Assembly (NCBI GenBank): GCA_945897795.1
Contig: CAMDFT010000018.1
Span: 1-42,391, forward strand
Source of the DNA: Limnohabitans sp. Rim8
GTDB taxonomy: Bacteria > Pseudomonadota > Gammaproteobacteria > Burkholderiales > Burkholderiaceae_C
Reading direction: 5' to 3'
Length of the DNA: 42,391 nucleotides
Shown: positions 12,027 through 42,391 of the stretch, in pieces
How the letters are laid out: each line of letters begins with the position of its first letter
Numbering within the stretch: position 1 is the first letter of the stretch
Program-made: the position numbers and the translations under genes
Notes under the pieces: generated by a model
The model's database searches: none
The model's input: the letters and a program-made list of their open reading frames with translations, nothing else
What the model was told of the DNA's origin: nothing

Positions 12027-13145
12027 TTAGGCCAACCGAGCACAGACCTCGTCCGCCATCGCCAGCGAGCTGGTCAAGCCCGGTGACTCGATGCCCAGCA
12101 GGTTCACCAGACCGGGCACGCCGTGCTCGGCCGGGCCCTGGATCATGAAGTCGGCTGCCGCTTCGTGCGGGGCGTTGATCTTGGGGCGCATGCCCGCATA
12201 ACCCGCCTGCAAAGCGCCGTCGGCCAAACCCGGCCAATATTTGCGCACCTCGGCATAAAAGGCATCGCCCCGGCGCGGGCCCACTTGCAAGTCCGTGGGG
12301 TCCTCGACCCATTGCACGTCAGGCCCGAACTTGGCTTGCCCGCCCAGGTCGAGCGTGAGGTGCACGCCCAAACCGGCTTTTTCGGGCACGGGGTAGATCA
12401 GGCGCGAAAACGGGGCTTTGCCCGCCAACGTGAAGTAGTTGCCTTTGGCGTAATGGGCTTGGGGCAACAGACTTTGATCCAGCCCATCCATGCGCCGTGC
12501 GATCGCCACAGCGCTCAGCCCAGCGGCGTTGACCAACACCTTGCACGCCAGCTCGGTGCCGTCTTGTGTGGTCACACGAATCGGATGTGTGGCGGTGCCC
12601 TGCCGCACGCCAATGTGCTGCACAGGCGAGACCAACGCCAGCAAACCGCCTGCGTTTTCCATGTCGCCTTGCAAGGCGAGCATATAGCCATGACTGTCAA
12701 TCACCCCGGTGCTGGGCGAGAGCAGCGCCGCTTCACAAGCCAGTGCAGGCTCCAGCGCCTGGGCCTGAGCGGCCGTGAGTTTTTGCAAATCGTGCACACC
12801 GTTGGCAGCGGCCTTGGCCATGATGCCGTCCAGCGCCAGCAATTGCTCAGGCGTCGTGGCCACGATCAGCTTGCCCAGCTGCCGGTGCGCCACACCGCGC
12901 TCGGCGCAATAGGCGTAGAGCATTTGCTTGCCTTGCACACACAGCCGCGCCTTGAGCGAACCCGCGGGGTAATAAATGCCCGCGTGGATGACCTCGCTGT
13001 TGCGCGAGCTGGTGCCGGTGCCAATGGCGTTTTCCGATTCGAGCACCAGCACCTCGCGGCCTGACAGCGCCAGCGCCCGACCCACAGCCAGGCCGACCAC
13101 GCCGGCCCCGATCACAACAGCATCAACTTGTTCCATGGCCAGCAT
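12027..13145 (-). CDS. FAD-dependent oxidoreductase, LhgO-like
   Basis: A 372-residue flavoprotein of the DAO family. The dinucleotide-binding motif [20 protein letters not shown] lies near residues 7-26, followed by [20 protein letters not shown] and the short signature [19 protein letters not shown]. That signature is typical of L-2-hydroxyglutarate oxidase/dehydrogenase (LhgO) and its relatives, which also keep [10 protein letters not shown] and the C-terminal [17 protein letters not shown]; both are present. LhgO oxidises L-2-hydroxyglutarate to 2-oxoglutarate and feeds electrons to the membrane. Substrate within the family varies, so only the family is firm. ATG 13145 and ATG 13136 are both possible starts. 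A solo REP-like sequence lies shortly upstream. Confidence 0.82.
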
Positions 13146-13167: not shown

Positions 13168-13193
13168 TGTGGGAGCGGTGTCCTCACCGCGAT
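13168..13193. repeat. Solo REP-like element
   Basis: TGTGGGAGCGG at 13168-13178 is followed by a hairpin in which GCGGTG (13175-13180) pairs with CACCGC (13185-13190), ending in GAT. Head, stem and tail match the left REP half at 41176 inside recD almost exactly. It sits in the gap between the divergent oxidase and SDR genes. REP elements of this head type are common in gammaproteobacteria and Comamonadaceae and are moved by RAYT transposases; none is seen in the window. Confidence 0.7.
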
Positions 13194-38836: not shown

Positions 38837-40036
38837 TCAGATGGCAGCCGATGGGTTAAGACTCAGCCAGGTTTTGAGTCGGTCCACGCCTTGCGCCAGC
38901 CGCACCAAGTCTTTGGACGCAAAGCACCAGCGCAGCCAGCCCGCCGCTTCAGGGGCAAAGGCTTCACCGGGGGCCAGGCCCAGACCGGCTTCGGCTACCA
39001 GTCGCTTGGCAGTCTGCACCGCATCGGGATGGCCGTCGAGCCTGAAAAACGCGTACATGCCGCCCTTGGCGGGGGCCACTTGCACGCCCGGCACGGCTTG
39101 CAACAGCGGCACCAGGGTGTCGCGGCAGGCTTTGAGGTGCGCTACCACTCTCGGCGTGATGTCGGCGGTGTTTTGCAAAGCCACCACCCCCGCCTTTTGG
39201 GTGAACACCGAAGCGCACGAGGTGTTGAATTCGATCAGTTTGCCCATGTGCGGCGTCATGGCGGCGGGCATGACCAGCCAGCCCAAGCGCCAGCCGGTCA
39301 TCAAAAAGCTCTTGGAAAAGCTGTGCACCACGACCAGACGATCATCCGACTCGACCACATCCAGAAAGGACGGGGCGCAGCCGTTGGGTGTGTCGGTTTC
39401 GTAATACAGGCGCTCATACACCTCGTCGGCCAGCACCCAGGTGCCGGTGTTGCGGCAGTGCGCCAGAATCTCGGCCTGCTCGGCGCGGCTGAGTGTCCAG
39501 CCCGTGGGGTTGTTGGGCGAGTTGACGATCAGCATCCGCGTGGCGGACGTGATCGCGGCTTTAAGCGCCGCCATGTCGAGCTGCCACTGGCCGTCCACCG
39601 GGCGCAGCGACACGCACTTCAAATCCGCGCCCATCACCAAGGCCTGCGCCGTCAGGTTGGGCCACACGGGCGTCACGGCCACCACTTCGTCGCCCGCGTC
39701 GATCAGGGCTTGCGCGGCCAGCATCAGCGCATTCACGCCACCCGAGGTGATGGCGAGGCGCTCCACCCCAATGGGGCCATGCAGGGCCGACATGTAAACC
39801 GACACGGCCTCGCGCAACTCCGGCAGGCCCAGGTTGTGCGAATAAAAAGTCTCGCCTTTTTGCAGCGAATCGGTGGCGGCTTGGCGCACGATGTCGGGCG
39901 TCACTTCGTCAGATTCACCAAACCAAAAGGCCAATACATCGGGGCGTCCCATGCCCGCGTTGGCGACTTCACGGATGCGGGATTCTTCCAGGTCCATGAC
40001 GGCCTGGCGCATGAAAGGGGCGGTGTTTTTGTTCAT
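38837..40036 (-). CDS. PLP-dependent aminotransferase class I/II
   Basis: A 399-residue fold-type I aminotransferase. AITSGGVNALMLAAQALIDA forms the PLP phosphate-binding region, NSPNNPTGWTLS and VLADEVYERLYYE follow, and the Schiff-base Lys is in VVHSFSKSFLMTGWRLGW. The closing Arg that binds the substrate carboxylate is probably in GWLRWCFASK. Such enzymes cover aspartate, aromatic, alanine and other amino donors; the substrate cannot be told. The start at 40036 is followed by a short family-like N-terminus (PFMRQAVMDLEESRIREVAN). It is divergent from the small secreted protein gene. Confidence 0.9.
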   Translation of the reverse strand: MNKNTAPFMRQAVMDLEESRIREVANAGMGRPDVLAFWFGESDEVTPDIVRQAATDSLQKGETFYSHNLGLPELREAVSVYMSALHGPIGVERLAITSGGVNALMLAAQALIDAGDEVVAVTPVWPNLTAQALVMGADLKCVSLRPVDGQWQLDMAALKAAITSATRMLIVNSPNNPTGWTLSRAEQAEILAHCRNTGTWVLADEVYERLYYETDTPNGCAPSFLDVVESDDRLVVVHSFSKSFLMTGWRLGWLVMPAAMTPHMGKLIEFNTSCASVFTQKAGVVALQNTADITPRVVAHLKACRDTLVPLLQAVPGVQVAPAKGGMYAFFRLDGHPDAVQTAKRLVAEAGLGLAPGEAFAPEAAGWLRWCFASKDLVRLAQGVDRLKTWLSLNPSAAI

Positions 40037-40112
40037 CCCAACATCCTAATGCTTGACGCGTTTTGAACGAGTCACCTCTTGCACAGTGTTGGCTGCCCGT
40101 TTGAATTTGTGT

Positions 40113-40140
40113 TTGCAGAAGGGCCGGGCTTGCCTATGAT
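40113..40140 (+). promoter_or_regulatory. Possible promoter of the small secreted protein gene
   Basis: TATGAT at 40135-40140 matches the -10 consensus at five of six positions; TTGCAG (40113-40118) 16 bp upstream is a weak -35. The ATG follows 31 bp later after GGGGGAA. Confidence 0.35.
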
Positions 40141-40171
40141 CCACAACACAACAAAAGACAGGGGGAACGCC

Positions 40172-40444
40172 ATGAAGACTGGGCATTTAGCGTCCACGCT
40201 GGCCAGCGTGGTTTTGGGGCTGGGCTGGCTGGCGGCTGTGCCCGCCAGCGGGGCCACAGACAACTTCACCGCCGTGACCGCCGCCGACAAACCGGCCAAG
40301 GGCAAAAAACCCAAACAGGCCAAAGCCCCAAAGGTCCCCACAGACAAAGGCTCGGCAGAAAGCAAGCCCGAGCGCGACAAACGCCTGATGCGCGAATGCC
40401 GGGGCCGACCCAACGCCGGGGCGTGCGAGGGCTACGCCAGCTGA
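40172..40444 (+). CDS. Small secreted lysine-rich protein, unknown function
   Basis: A 90-residue protein I cannot assign to a named family. It has a clear signal peptide, MKTGHLASTLASVVLGLGWL then AAVPASGA, with cleavage likely after SGA. The mature part of about 60 residues is rich in Lys, Ala and Pro (AKGKKPKQAKAPKVP) and ends in a compact block RLMRECRGRPNAGACEGYAS. The two cysteines, eight residues apart, could form a disulfide in the periplasm. Similar short proteins with a C-terminal RECRGxxNAGACxGY block seem to occur in related bacteria, by recollection only. GGGGGAA before ATG 40172 supports the start. It is convergent with recD, only 5 bp away. Confidence 0.65.
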   Translation: MKTGHLASTLASVVLGLGWLAAVPASGATDNFTAVTAADKPAKGKKPKQAKAPKVPTDKGSAESKPERDKRLMRECRGRPNAGACEGYAS

Positions 40445-40449
40445 GTGCT

Positions 40450-42391
40450 TCAGGCGCCGGACTTTACAAGCGGCTGCGCCCACCTCTGCGCCAAACCGCT
40501 GGCGCGCGCACTGGGGCGGTGGATGGCCGCTTCGAGCAAACCGGCTTCGGCCTCGATCAGGGTGAACTGCTCGCGAGCCCTTGTGATGCCGGTGTAGACC
40601 AGCTCGCGGCTAAGGACCTCGGCACCGCCCGGGGGCAACACCAGCGCGGTGTGCTCGAACTCCGAGCCTTGGCTTTTGTGCACCGTCATGACAAAGGCGG
40701 TGTCGACCTGGGCCAAGCGCATGACGCTCACCGAGCGCAAGGCTTCACCGTCCAAAAACCAGACCTTGGGCTTGCCTTCGGTGTTGGGCAACACCACGCC
40801 CACGTCGCCGTTGAACACGCCCAGCTGCGCGTCGTTACGCGTGACCATGACGGGCCGCCCCTCGTACCATTCGCCTTTGACTTGCAGCAGGCCCGCATCG
40901 GCCAGAGCTTTTTGCACCGCCGCATTAAGCGCTTGTGTGCCCCAATCGCCCTGATGCACCGCGCACAAAATGCGAAAGCGATCGAAGGCCTTGAGCACGC
41001 TGCGCACCCAGTTGGCGTGGCTTTCGCTGGACACCTCAGCGCCCTGATTTGCCGGGCCGGTTTGCATAAGGCGCAGGTAATCGGCATACGAAGGCTTGCC
41101 CGCTGCGCCCAGCGCCAAGGCGCACACGGCCTGGGGGCTGCTCGGCTGCAAGGCCAGCAGGGCAGAAGCTTGCCCTGTAGGAGCGGTCTCCGACCGCGAT
41201 AAATCGCCAACCAAACCATCGCGGCCAGAGGCCGCTCCTACAAAAACGTCGCGGGCTGCAACGGCATCGCCCCGGTTCACCGCCAGCGCCAACTGGCCAA
41301 TGGCGCCTTTGAAGCGGCGGCTTTGGCGCAGCATCACGGTTTGCTGGGCCAGCACGGGGGCTGGATCGTTCACGACAAATTCCGCATCCAGGGACTGACC
41401 CGCTGTGTGCTGCACAAACTGCCCAGTGGCCGCGCTGTAGCGGCCCGCTGCAGCGTCTTGGCACAAGTCGCCCAGCACCGCACCGGCTTCGACCGAGGCG
41501 AGCTGGTCTTTGTCACCCAACAGCACCAAGCGCGCGGTAGGCGGCAAGGCCTGCAGCAGCGCGTCCATCATTTCCAGGTGGACCATCGAGGCTTCGTCGA
41601 CGATCAGCACATCCACATCGAGCGGGTTGGCGGCGTGGTGTCGAAACTGGCGTGTGTCGGGCCGCGCCCCCAGCAACGAATGCAGCGTGCGCGCCGGGCC
41701 CATGCGGGCGATCAGCGCGCTCAGGTCCAGCCCTGCATCGGCAGGCACGGGCAAGCGGGTCAGGGCATCGTCGATCGACTGCTTCAGACGCGCCGCCGCC
41801 TTGCCGGTGGGCGCAGCCAACGCCACGCGCAAGGGGCTGCCATCGGGGTGCAGCGCCAACAGCAGGGCCAGCAAGCGGGCGGCGGTGTAGGTTTTGCCGG
41901 TGCCAGGCCCACCGGTGATGACCGACAGGCGGGCGCGCAGCGCCACGGCGCAGGCCACTTTCTGCCAGTCGGTGAGGTTGTGGGCTTGGGGATTGGGCGC
42001 TTCGGGGTTGGGCACAAAGAAACGGTCCAGCCATTCGCGTGCCGCTGCTTCGGGCACGGCCAGTGGCTCGCTGGCGCGCAGCAGCAAGCTCTGGCCCACG
42101 CGCTGCTCATAGCCCGCATAGCGGCGCAGGTACAAAAGCGACGCATCGGCCGATCCACCCAGCACCAGCGGTTGGCCTTGGTCGGGGGCATCGGCCAGGC
42201 GCACACAAGCACTGGGCGAGTGGCCTTGCAAAGCGACTTGCCAGTCGGCCAGCGTGGCGGGCATGTGCGCCCACAAAGCCTTGAGACCCTGATCGCCCTC
42301 CACGGCTGGCGCAGGCCAGCCCAGCAAGGCCACGGGCGGCTGGCACAGTTCGGCCACGGACAGGCAGGTGTGTCCGCGCCCTTCCATGTGG
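40450..42391 (-). CDS. recD: Exodeoxyribonuclease V alpha subunit RecD, 5' end cut by the window
   Basis: At least 646 residues of the RecD helicase of RecBCD, which with RecB and RecC processes double-strand ends. Walker A is GGPGTGKTYTAARLL, Walker B is VLIVDEASM, and QTVMLRQSRRFKGAIGQLA, VMTVHKSQGSEFEHTALVLP and ELVYTGITRAREQ are further helicase motifs. The first residue in view (EGRGHTCLSVAEL) is normally preceded by about 80 residues, and the frame stays open to the window edge, so the start is outside. An internal stretch of 22 codons (41176-41241) is a complete REP pair read in frame between the QLALAVNRGDAVAARDV region and ASALLALQPS; it adds FVGAASGRDGLVGDLSRSE and a few more residues. 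recB and recC should lie beyond the right edge. Confidence 0.95.
   Translation of the reverse strand, partial: HMEGRGHTCLSVAELCQPPVALLGWPAPAVEGDQGLKALWAHMPATLADWQVALQGHSPSACVRLADAPDQGQPLVLGGSADASLLYLRRYAGYEQRVGQSLLLRASEPLAVPEAAAREWLDRFFVPNPEAPNPQAHNLTDWQKVACAVALRARLSVITGGPGTGKTYTAARLLALLLALHPDGSPLRVALAAPTGKAAARLKQSIDDALTRLPVPADAGLDLSALIARMGPARTLHSLLGARPDTRQFRHHAANPLDVDVLIVDEASMVHLEMMDALLQALPPTARLVLLGDKDQLASVEAGAVLGDLCQDAAAGRYSAATGQFVQHTAGQSLDAEFVVNDPAPVLAQQTVMLRQSRRFKGAIGQLALAVNRGDAVAARDVFVGAASGRDGLVGDLSRSETAPTGQASALLALQPSSPQAVCALALGAAGKPSYADYLRLMQTGPANQGAEVSSESHANWVRSVLKAFDRFRILCAVHQGDWGTQALNAAVQKALADAGLLQVKGEWYEGRPVMVTRNDAQLGVFNGDVGVVLPNTEGKPKVWFLDGEALRSVSVMRLAQVDTAFVMTVHKSQGSEFEHTALVLPPGGAEVLSRELVYTGITRAREQFTLIEAEAGLLEAAIHRPSARASGLAQRWAQPLVKSGA
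41176..41241. repeat. Complete REP pair (BIME-like) inside recD
   Basis: TGTAGGAGCGG (41176-41186) and CCGCTCCTACA (41231-41241) are perfect inverted ends. Each half has its own hairpin, GCGGTC/GACCGC on the left and GCGGCC/GGCCGC on the right, and carries GCGAT or ATCGC inward. The unit is exactly 66 bp, or 22 codons, and contains no stop in the recD frame. The left half closely matches the solo copy at 13168. Confidence 0.85.

Follow-up and report, generated by a model that had tools for sequence, protein, structure and literature searches.

An in-frame REP pair in recD of a Limnohabitans genome and the recurrent occupation of the same RecD loop by palindromes in its relatives

Repetitive extragenic palindromes (REPs) usually lie outside genes, whereas the copy described here is coding. 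The window, i.e., the whole stretch of 42,391 nucleotides analysed, corresponds to contig C18 of a draft genome (G000; 3.26 Mb in 164 contigs, 87% complete) of Limnohabitans sp. Rim8. Its last gene, an open frame on the minus strand (40450-42387), codes for RecD, the exodeoxyribonuclease V alpha subunit (TIGR01447, 492.5 bits versus a cut-off of 310), of which 645 amino acids are seen, the 5' end being truncated by the end of the contig. Within this frame, two inverted arms of 25 nt each (41176-41200 and 41218-41242), 88% complementary and separated by a 17-nt spacer, make up a head-to-head pair of GTAG-type REPs (41176-41242) of a subtype that we call C (GGAGCGGYC..GRCCGCGA), with one core on the plus strand (GGAGCGGTCTCCGACCGCGA, 41180-41199) and the other on the minus strand (GGAGCGGCCTCTGGCCGCGA, 41219-41238). 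The palindrome itself measures 67 bp and ends at 41242; by codon arithmetic, positions 41176-41241 amount to 66 bp or exactly 22 codons, which encode on the minus strand the peptide V383-T404 (VGAASGRDGLVGDLSRSETAPT). The arms, the TIGR01447 frame and the 22 codons together confirm the preliminary description of this DNA, according to which a whole inverted REP pair is inserted in frame in recD.

The pair carries at both ends TGTAGGAGCGG, the head of GTAG-type REPs, beside a short stem-loop (TGTAGGAGCGG..CCGCGA), as is typical of the GTAG REP superfamily, and like other members of this superfamily it has many dispersed genomic copies; extragenic location, the usual though not absolute habit of these elements, is the trait from which it departs. 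TGTAGGAGCGG occurs with at most one mismatch at 3 places in the window versus 0.50 expected; the core GGAGCGG..CCGCGA occurs 3 times there versus 0.06 expected. The further copies that the preliminary description had proposed to look for are present at the genome scale, with 16 exact occurrences of TGTAGGAGCGG (versus 1 for a reversed-pattern control) and 27 exact subtype-C cores (versus 0 for controls). So is the RAYT transposase, encoded on contig C5 by a gene of 147 amino acids (L001:1742-2185; G000:C5:39439-39666; NF047646, 135.6 bits versus a cut-off of 80) that has REP pairs of the recD subtype on both sides. The paired inverted REPs, separated by a short spacer, and the RAYT with matching REPs on either side recall the REPIN/RAYT systems, as described in the available text of PMC2817692. 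Genes for Y1 transposases are found in 58 of the 60 genomes of the genus searched. An Rfam search of positions 40000-42391 gave no match. Elsewhere in the window, a single GTAG-type REP (head GTGGGAGCGG, 13168-13192) is located just upstream of a minus-strand gene (12027-13145), outside any clear gene.

The history of the insert can be read from the hypervariable loop that surrounds it (N371-Q414; 41146-41277, minus strand), which we compared across the genus. RecD was aligned first for 30 loci, including that of the window, and then for 50 named loci plus the window, 47 of the 50 having a usable loop (L104 and L109 have no loop and L102 is misaligned). These 50 loci, matched by RecD protein, come mostly from Limnohabitans or from metagenome bins of Comamonadaceae/Burkholderiales, plus three from Rubrivivax and one filed as Akkermansia; the latter (L067, Akkermansia muciniphila) has a Limnohabitans-like recD, 84% identical to that of the window, and is probably a mislabelled metagenome bin. 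The REP pair is shared by the window and four other species (L061, L062, L064, and L077), in which the copy is partly decayed; their records belong to different accession series, and the RecD proteins of L061 and L062 are 91% identical. The presence of the insert in these independent genomes argues against an assembly error. Since a copy is also found in four other species, the insert is no product of assembly and not of recent date in the species of the window, for which the suggestion of a recent insertion is therefore not supported. Eight near relatives (L063, L065-L068, L073, L092, and L101) have no insert and a loop of 27 residues, close to the 26 residues of the outgroups L087, L091, and L096, and because of this similarity in length the short loop is probably the ancestral state, as judged from the aligned sequences. 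The empty loops do not differ from the occupied ones by exactly the 22 REP-encoded residues: the loop has 44 residues in the window and 52 in L064 and L077, and a stretch beside the insert, ACLxGPNNA, is kept in L064 and L077 and mostly lost in the window, L061, and L062, which explains why the gap is not exact. About eight residues adjoining the insert in L064 and L077 are absent from the window. The preliminary description had also named a non-REP loop of similar length in relatives as evidence against an insertion. Such loops do exist in two distant members of the genus (L050 and L051, 53-55% identical, whose compared stretch is 51 and 53 residues long, with no REP recognizable by eye); taken together with the eight short loops, they fit a permissive site rather than a refutation.

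The predicted structure of the protein points in the same direction. An AlphaFold model of RecD (mean pLDDT 80.4) matches the RecD subunit of the Escherichia coli RecBCD complex (8b1t_D) with a TM-score of 0.73 by query length. Between a helix (375-386) and a strand (410-413), it places a coil in which pLDDT falls below 50 at residues 387-406 and to about 29 at 391-400, although the underlying alignment is shallow (33 sequences) and the low confidence may partly reflect this shallowness. Most of the REP-encoded peptide lies within this low-confidence coil. In sequence comparison, the two conserved blocks end and restart at residues 386 and 402 of the E. coli protein, so that a stretch of 52 residues in the window corresponds to 15 in E. 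coli. When the five sharing sequences are compared two by two, the dN/dS ratio is higher in the insert (0.18-1.13) than in the rest of the gene (0.13-0.20) for each of the ten pairs, the changes being few and the pairs non-independent. The idea of a tolerated loop, presumably at the surface, is supported by the very low-confidence coil of the model and by the shortness of the loop in relatives without insert.

A function envisaged for the insert concerns the message: a hairpin that would slow the ribosome or protect the recD mRNA, and that would have been retained for that reason. The predicted fold is indeed very stable in the window, with a z-score of -5.4 for 101 nt of the plus strand around the pair and of -6.1 for the coding strand against codon shuffles. 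However, the coding-strand fold is ordinary in the four other sharing species (z-scores of -0.1, -0.2, -1.8, and -1.2 in L061, L062, L064, and L077, respectively), so the pairing is not maintained; with an exceptional fold only in the window's copy among the five, a hairpin role finds no support as a conserved function and is extremely improbable as the cause of retention, a role in the species of the window alone being conceivable. We consider it very likely, by contrast, that recD harbors an old and tolerated in-frame, REPIN-like REP pair which belongs to the genome's own subtype-C family, was presumably mobilized by a RAYT, and occupies a permissive RecD loop. A REP pair would have inserted in recD of the ancestor of several Limnohabitans species, presumably with the help of the REP-flanked RAYT. 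As the insert kept the frame and brought no stop in the frame used, it would have added a disordered segment of 22 residues between two helicase segments, presumably neutral and compatible with retained RecD activity. The loop would have tolerated this insert, so that selection would not have removed it, and the encoded peptide would now be drifting faster than the remainder of RecD.

The same loop appears to have been filled repeatedly and by different palindromes. In 13 other loci (L069-L072, L074-L076, L078-L081, L099, and also L042), REPs with other stems, GCGAGC..GCTCGC (subtype A) or GCGRCG..CGYCGC (subtype B), occupy approximately the same RecD site as single REPs, as a tail-to-tail pair (L074), or as decayed remains, most of them in the VGA frame. 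Exact REPs of the subtypes A, B, and C were counted in 29 genomes, every control count being 0 or 1. Several genomes were assigned to their recD loci on the basis of identical loop DNA (G023, G028, G025, and G013 to L062, L077, L076, and L080; G034, G022, and G024 to L072, L074, and L099, respectively). Of the 13 genomes whose loop subtype could be identified, 12 have this subtype as the commonest of the three in the genome (p = 4.5e-5 with shuffled labels, kinship being ignored); the comparison covers these 13 of the 29 genomes, the other 16 having decayed loops (5), empty loops (8), or the status of outgroups (3), it scores G034 and G032 as type A despite their imperfect copies, and its counts include the recD copy itself whenever this is exact. 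G085 (L064) is the exception, with a C loop but 2 exact C copies versus 4 of B. Loop occupancy also follows REP abundance: the 13 genomes have 7-138 exact REPs, and the eight genomes with empty loops have 0-4 (Mann-Whitney p = 9e-5, or 9e-4 if the five decayed loops are counted as occupied, in both cases with kinship ignored). The relationship is imperfect, as G004 has 16 B REPs yet no recD insert, and the genome G088 lacks exact REPs of all three subtypes although its RecD loop (L069) is A-like.

How many insertions these patterns represent is less certain. In a tree of RecD sequences from which the loop had been excluded (49 rows, after removal of L102, L104, and L109), type A requires six changes, and loop occupancy also six; A and B appear three times as sister rows, two of these groups being starred, while the one formed by L070 and the decayed L099 has values of 99/74. 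The gene itself is, in addition, a mosaic. The sequence of L077 resembles that of L071 and its relatives as far as residue 300 (85-93% identity with L071) but that of L064 beginning with the loop (79-91%). Between L069 and L063, identity reaches 89-97% in nine of the twelve windows along RecD but is 78% at residues 300-340 and 52-68% at 376-450. The switches of ancestry in L077, L064, and L069 are situated in recD at or near the REP loop. These mosaics imply that the loops also move by homologous recombination and that changes counted on the tree are not insertion counts. The number of independent insertions is therefore uncertain, because recD is mosaic and because the tests of subtype match and occupancy ignore kinship. 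An alternative that takes this mosaicism further is that one old RecD insert was spread by homologous recombination between species, its REP being later converted by other genomic copies. The mosaics of L077 and L069 speak for it, as does the approximately identical junction, with mostly the same VGA frame, that is seen by eye for different subtypes within one clade. The flanks downstream and the loop lengths differ, however, among the subtypes, and the REPs of MutL and RfbB, in other frames and orientations than in RecD, point to the occurrence of independent insertions within the genus. We thus regard a single insert as possible, if somewhat unlikely. Under our preferred reading of repeated landings in a permissive loop, homologous recombination between species would also move the RecD loop.

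The RecD loop is, in fact, one of several protein segments that receive REPs. The genome of the window has in-frame REP pairs in mutL, in the linker between the N- and C-terminal domains, and in rfbB, in the loop that precedes FRFLHVSTDEVYG. We searched both genes in 29 genomes and read the subtypes by eye. About a dozen of the 29 genomes have REPs in the MutL linker, of subtype C, A, or B or with yet another stem; the linker is truncated in G092 and partial in G088. In 27 aligned loci (those of G087 and G092, which are distant matches, were excluded, and the second copies of G089 and G028 lie outside the comparison), the RfbB loop by eye contains three C pairs, three type A REPs, one B-like remnant, three copies of a different palindrome (GTCATTGCGAGCG...), and one third palindrome; it is short in 15 and ambiguous in one. 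The third palindrome, GATCCCCGCGTTCGCGGGGATGAC, is that of rfbB of G090 (L161). The RfbB loop is short despite a REP-rich genome in G025, G091, and G013. RecC carries REPs in three genomes. At least 8 of 222 distinct exact REP sites in seven genomes (covering 340 of their 413 exact elements) lie clearly in genes, namely recD (3), recC (3), mutL (1), and rfbB (1), a minimum in which the scorer missed the MutL REPs of G028 and skipped one cluster near a fragment edge. Several other candidates were discarded: the open frames L018, L019, L021, L008, L029, and others, with REPs near their ends or no Pfam family, the weak candidates L209, L213, and L299, with no NCBIfam family match, and a peptide match in G000:C66 that corresponds to ribosomal protein S1 by reading of its sequence.

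Of the four gene families in which our survey found GTAG REPs, three (recD, recC, and mutL) function in recombination or repair, and the available text of PMC3733652 describes many REPs in such genes of other bacteria. It could be argued, as speculated in 2013, that REPs in RecD, RecC, and MutL have been selected for modulating recombination or mismatch repair, leading for instance to mutator-like states. We judge this to be very unlikely. The sample consists of four gene families from 340 of the 413 exact elements of seven genomes, the RecD insert is less constrained than the rest of RecD, and a second family of palindromes enters genes outside recombination and mismatch repair. The palindrome of this family, GTCATTNCGAGCGNAGCGNGGCAATCC, has 44, 36, and 23 copies in G028, G086, and G093, the three genomes with the copy in the RfbB loop, 19 in the genome of the window, and at most 9 in each of the other 25 genomes. 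In 31 of 38 inspected copies it is preceded by C, which completes a CGTC tag shared with the CGTC repeats in the available text of PMC3733652. In G000 it encodes VIASEARQS and occurs in frame in Lpd (L345), AceF (L351), and twice in HrpA (L347). Among 32 clusters inspected, it is located in a gene in 4 of 14 in G000, 0 of 13 in the fetched stretches of G028, and 3 of 5 in the three rfbB loci. Table 1 of PMC3733652 ties GTAG repeats, but not CGTC repeats, to transposase genes. Because GTAG- and CGTC-type families share one loop, the simplest common cause is that the loop tolerates inserts, and not that a single enzyme targets it. Mobile palindromes would thus land widely and, within genes, survive only in permissive loops; those of RecD, RecC, MutL, and RfbB would have been filled repeatedly, that of RecD nearly always by the genome's commonest subtype.

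Coding palindromes of this kind have precedents. The available text of PMC3733652, published in 2013, reports GTAG and CGTC REPs, some of them intragenic; replication and repair genes, recBCD among them, contain many of the intragenic ones, and in two Xanthomonas different REPs occupy nearly the same site of recB. The recD pair resembles these intragenic REPs in its GTAG tag, its head-to-head arrangement, the 20-30 residues encoded, and its location in recBCD and repair genes. Our study differs from that work, whose main text is without Limnohabitans, in comparing one loop in 47 of 50 loci, with short sites and a match to the genomic subtype. The classical precedent, known from the available text of PMC10969869, is that of the RPEs of Rickettsia, palindromes lying in frame inside many genes. 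As judged from the alignment, dN/dS, and model, the recD pair works like an RPE, a palindrome in frame and tolerated in a protein gene; we do not class it as one, since it is set apart by its length (66-67 bp versus about 150 bp for RPEs as first described in PMC10969869) and by its GTAG head versus a CGTC tag, some CGTC repeats of R. conorii being RPE-4 and RPE-6 according to the available text of PMC3733652. Searches of the literature found nothing linking Limnohabitans with repetitive extragenic palindromes, the matches for Limnohabitans and palindromes being off topic as far as their available text goes; they found no occurrence of the first twelve letters of the CGTC palindrome and, among the matches listed, no closer case than the REPs of PMC3733652 and the RPEs. 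In-frame REPs in recBCD and repair genes have thus been known since 2013, and RPEs for longer; what is new is the recurrent, family-matched use of one loop.

This recurrence amounts to a natural experiment in the lengthening of proteins by mobile palindromes: in dozens of related and partly cultured freshwater bacteria, the same loops can be compared while empty, freshly filled, decayed, or filled anew, and one loop can host palindromes of different families. The speculation of 2013 about REP-tagged repair proteins becomes directly testable. Such loops also call for caution, as they can mimic species-specific protein segments. In a more far-reaching and, in our opinion, unlikely scenario, a few linkers of Limnohabitans proteins, above all those of RecD, RecC, and MutL, would be standing landing sites, their peptide being rewritten time after time by whichever palindrome family is currently amplified by a RAYT or an analogue; the resident mobile palindromes could then be read from the repair machinery, and recombination or mismatch repair might be affected. 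GTAG REPs of further stem types also lie between recB and recD, and not within either gene, clustered in Limnohabitans planktonicus (L105:1693-2133) and single in Limnohabitans sp. DM1 (L093:2113-2133).
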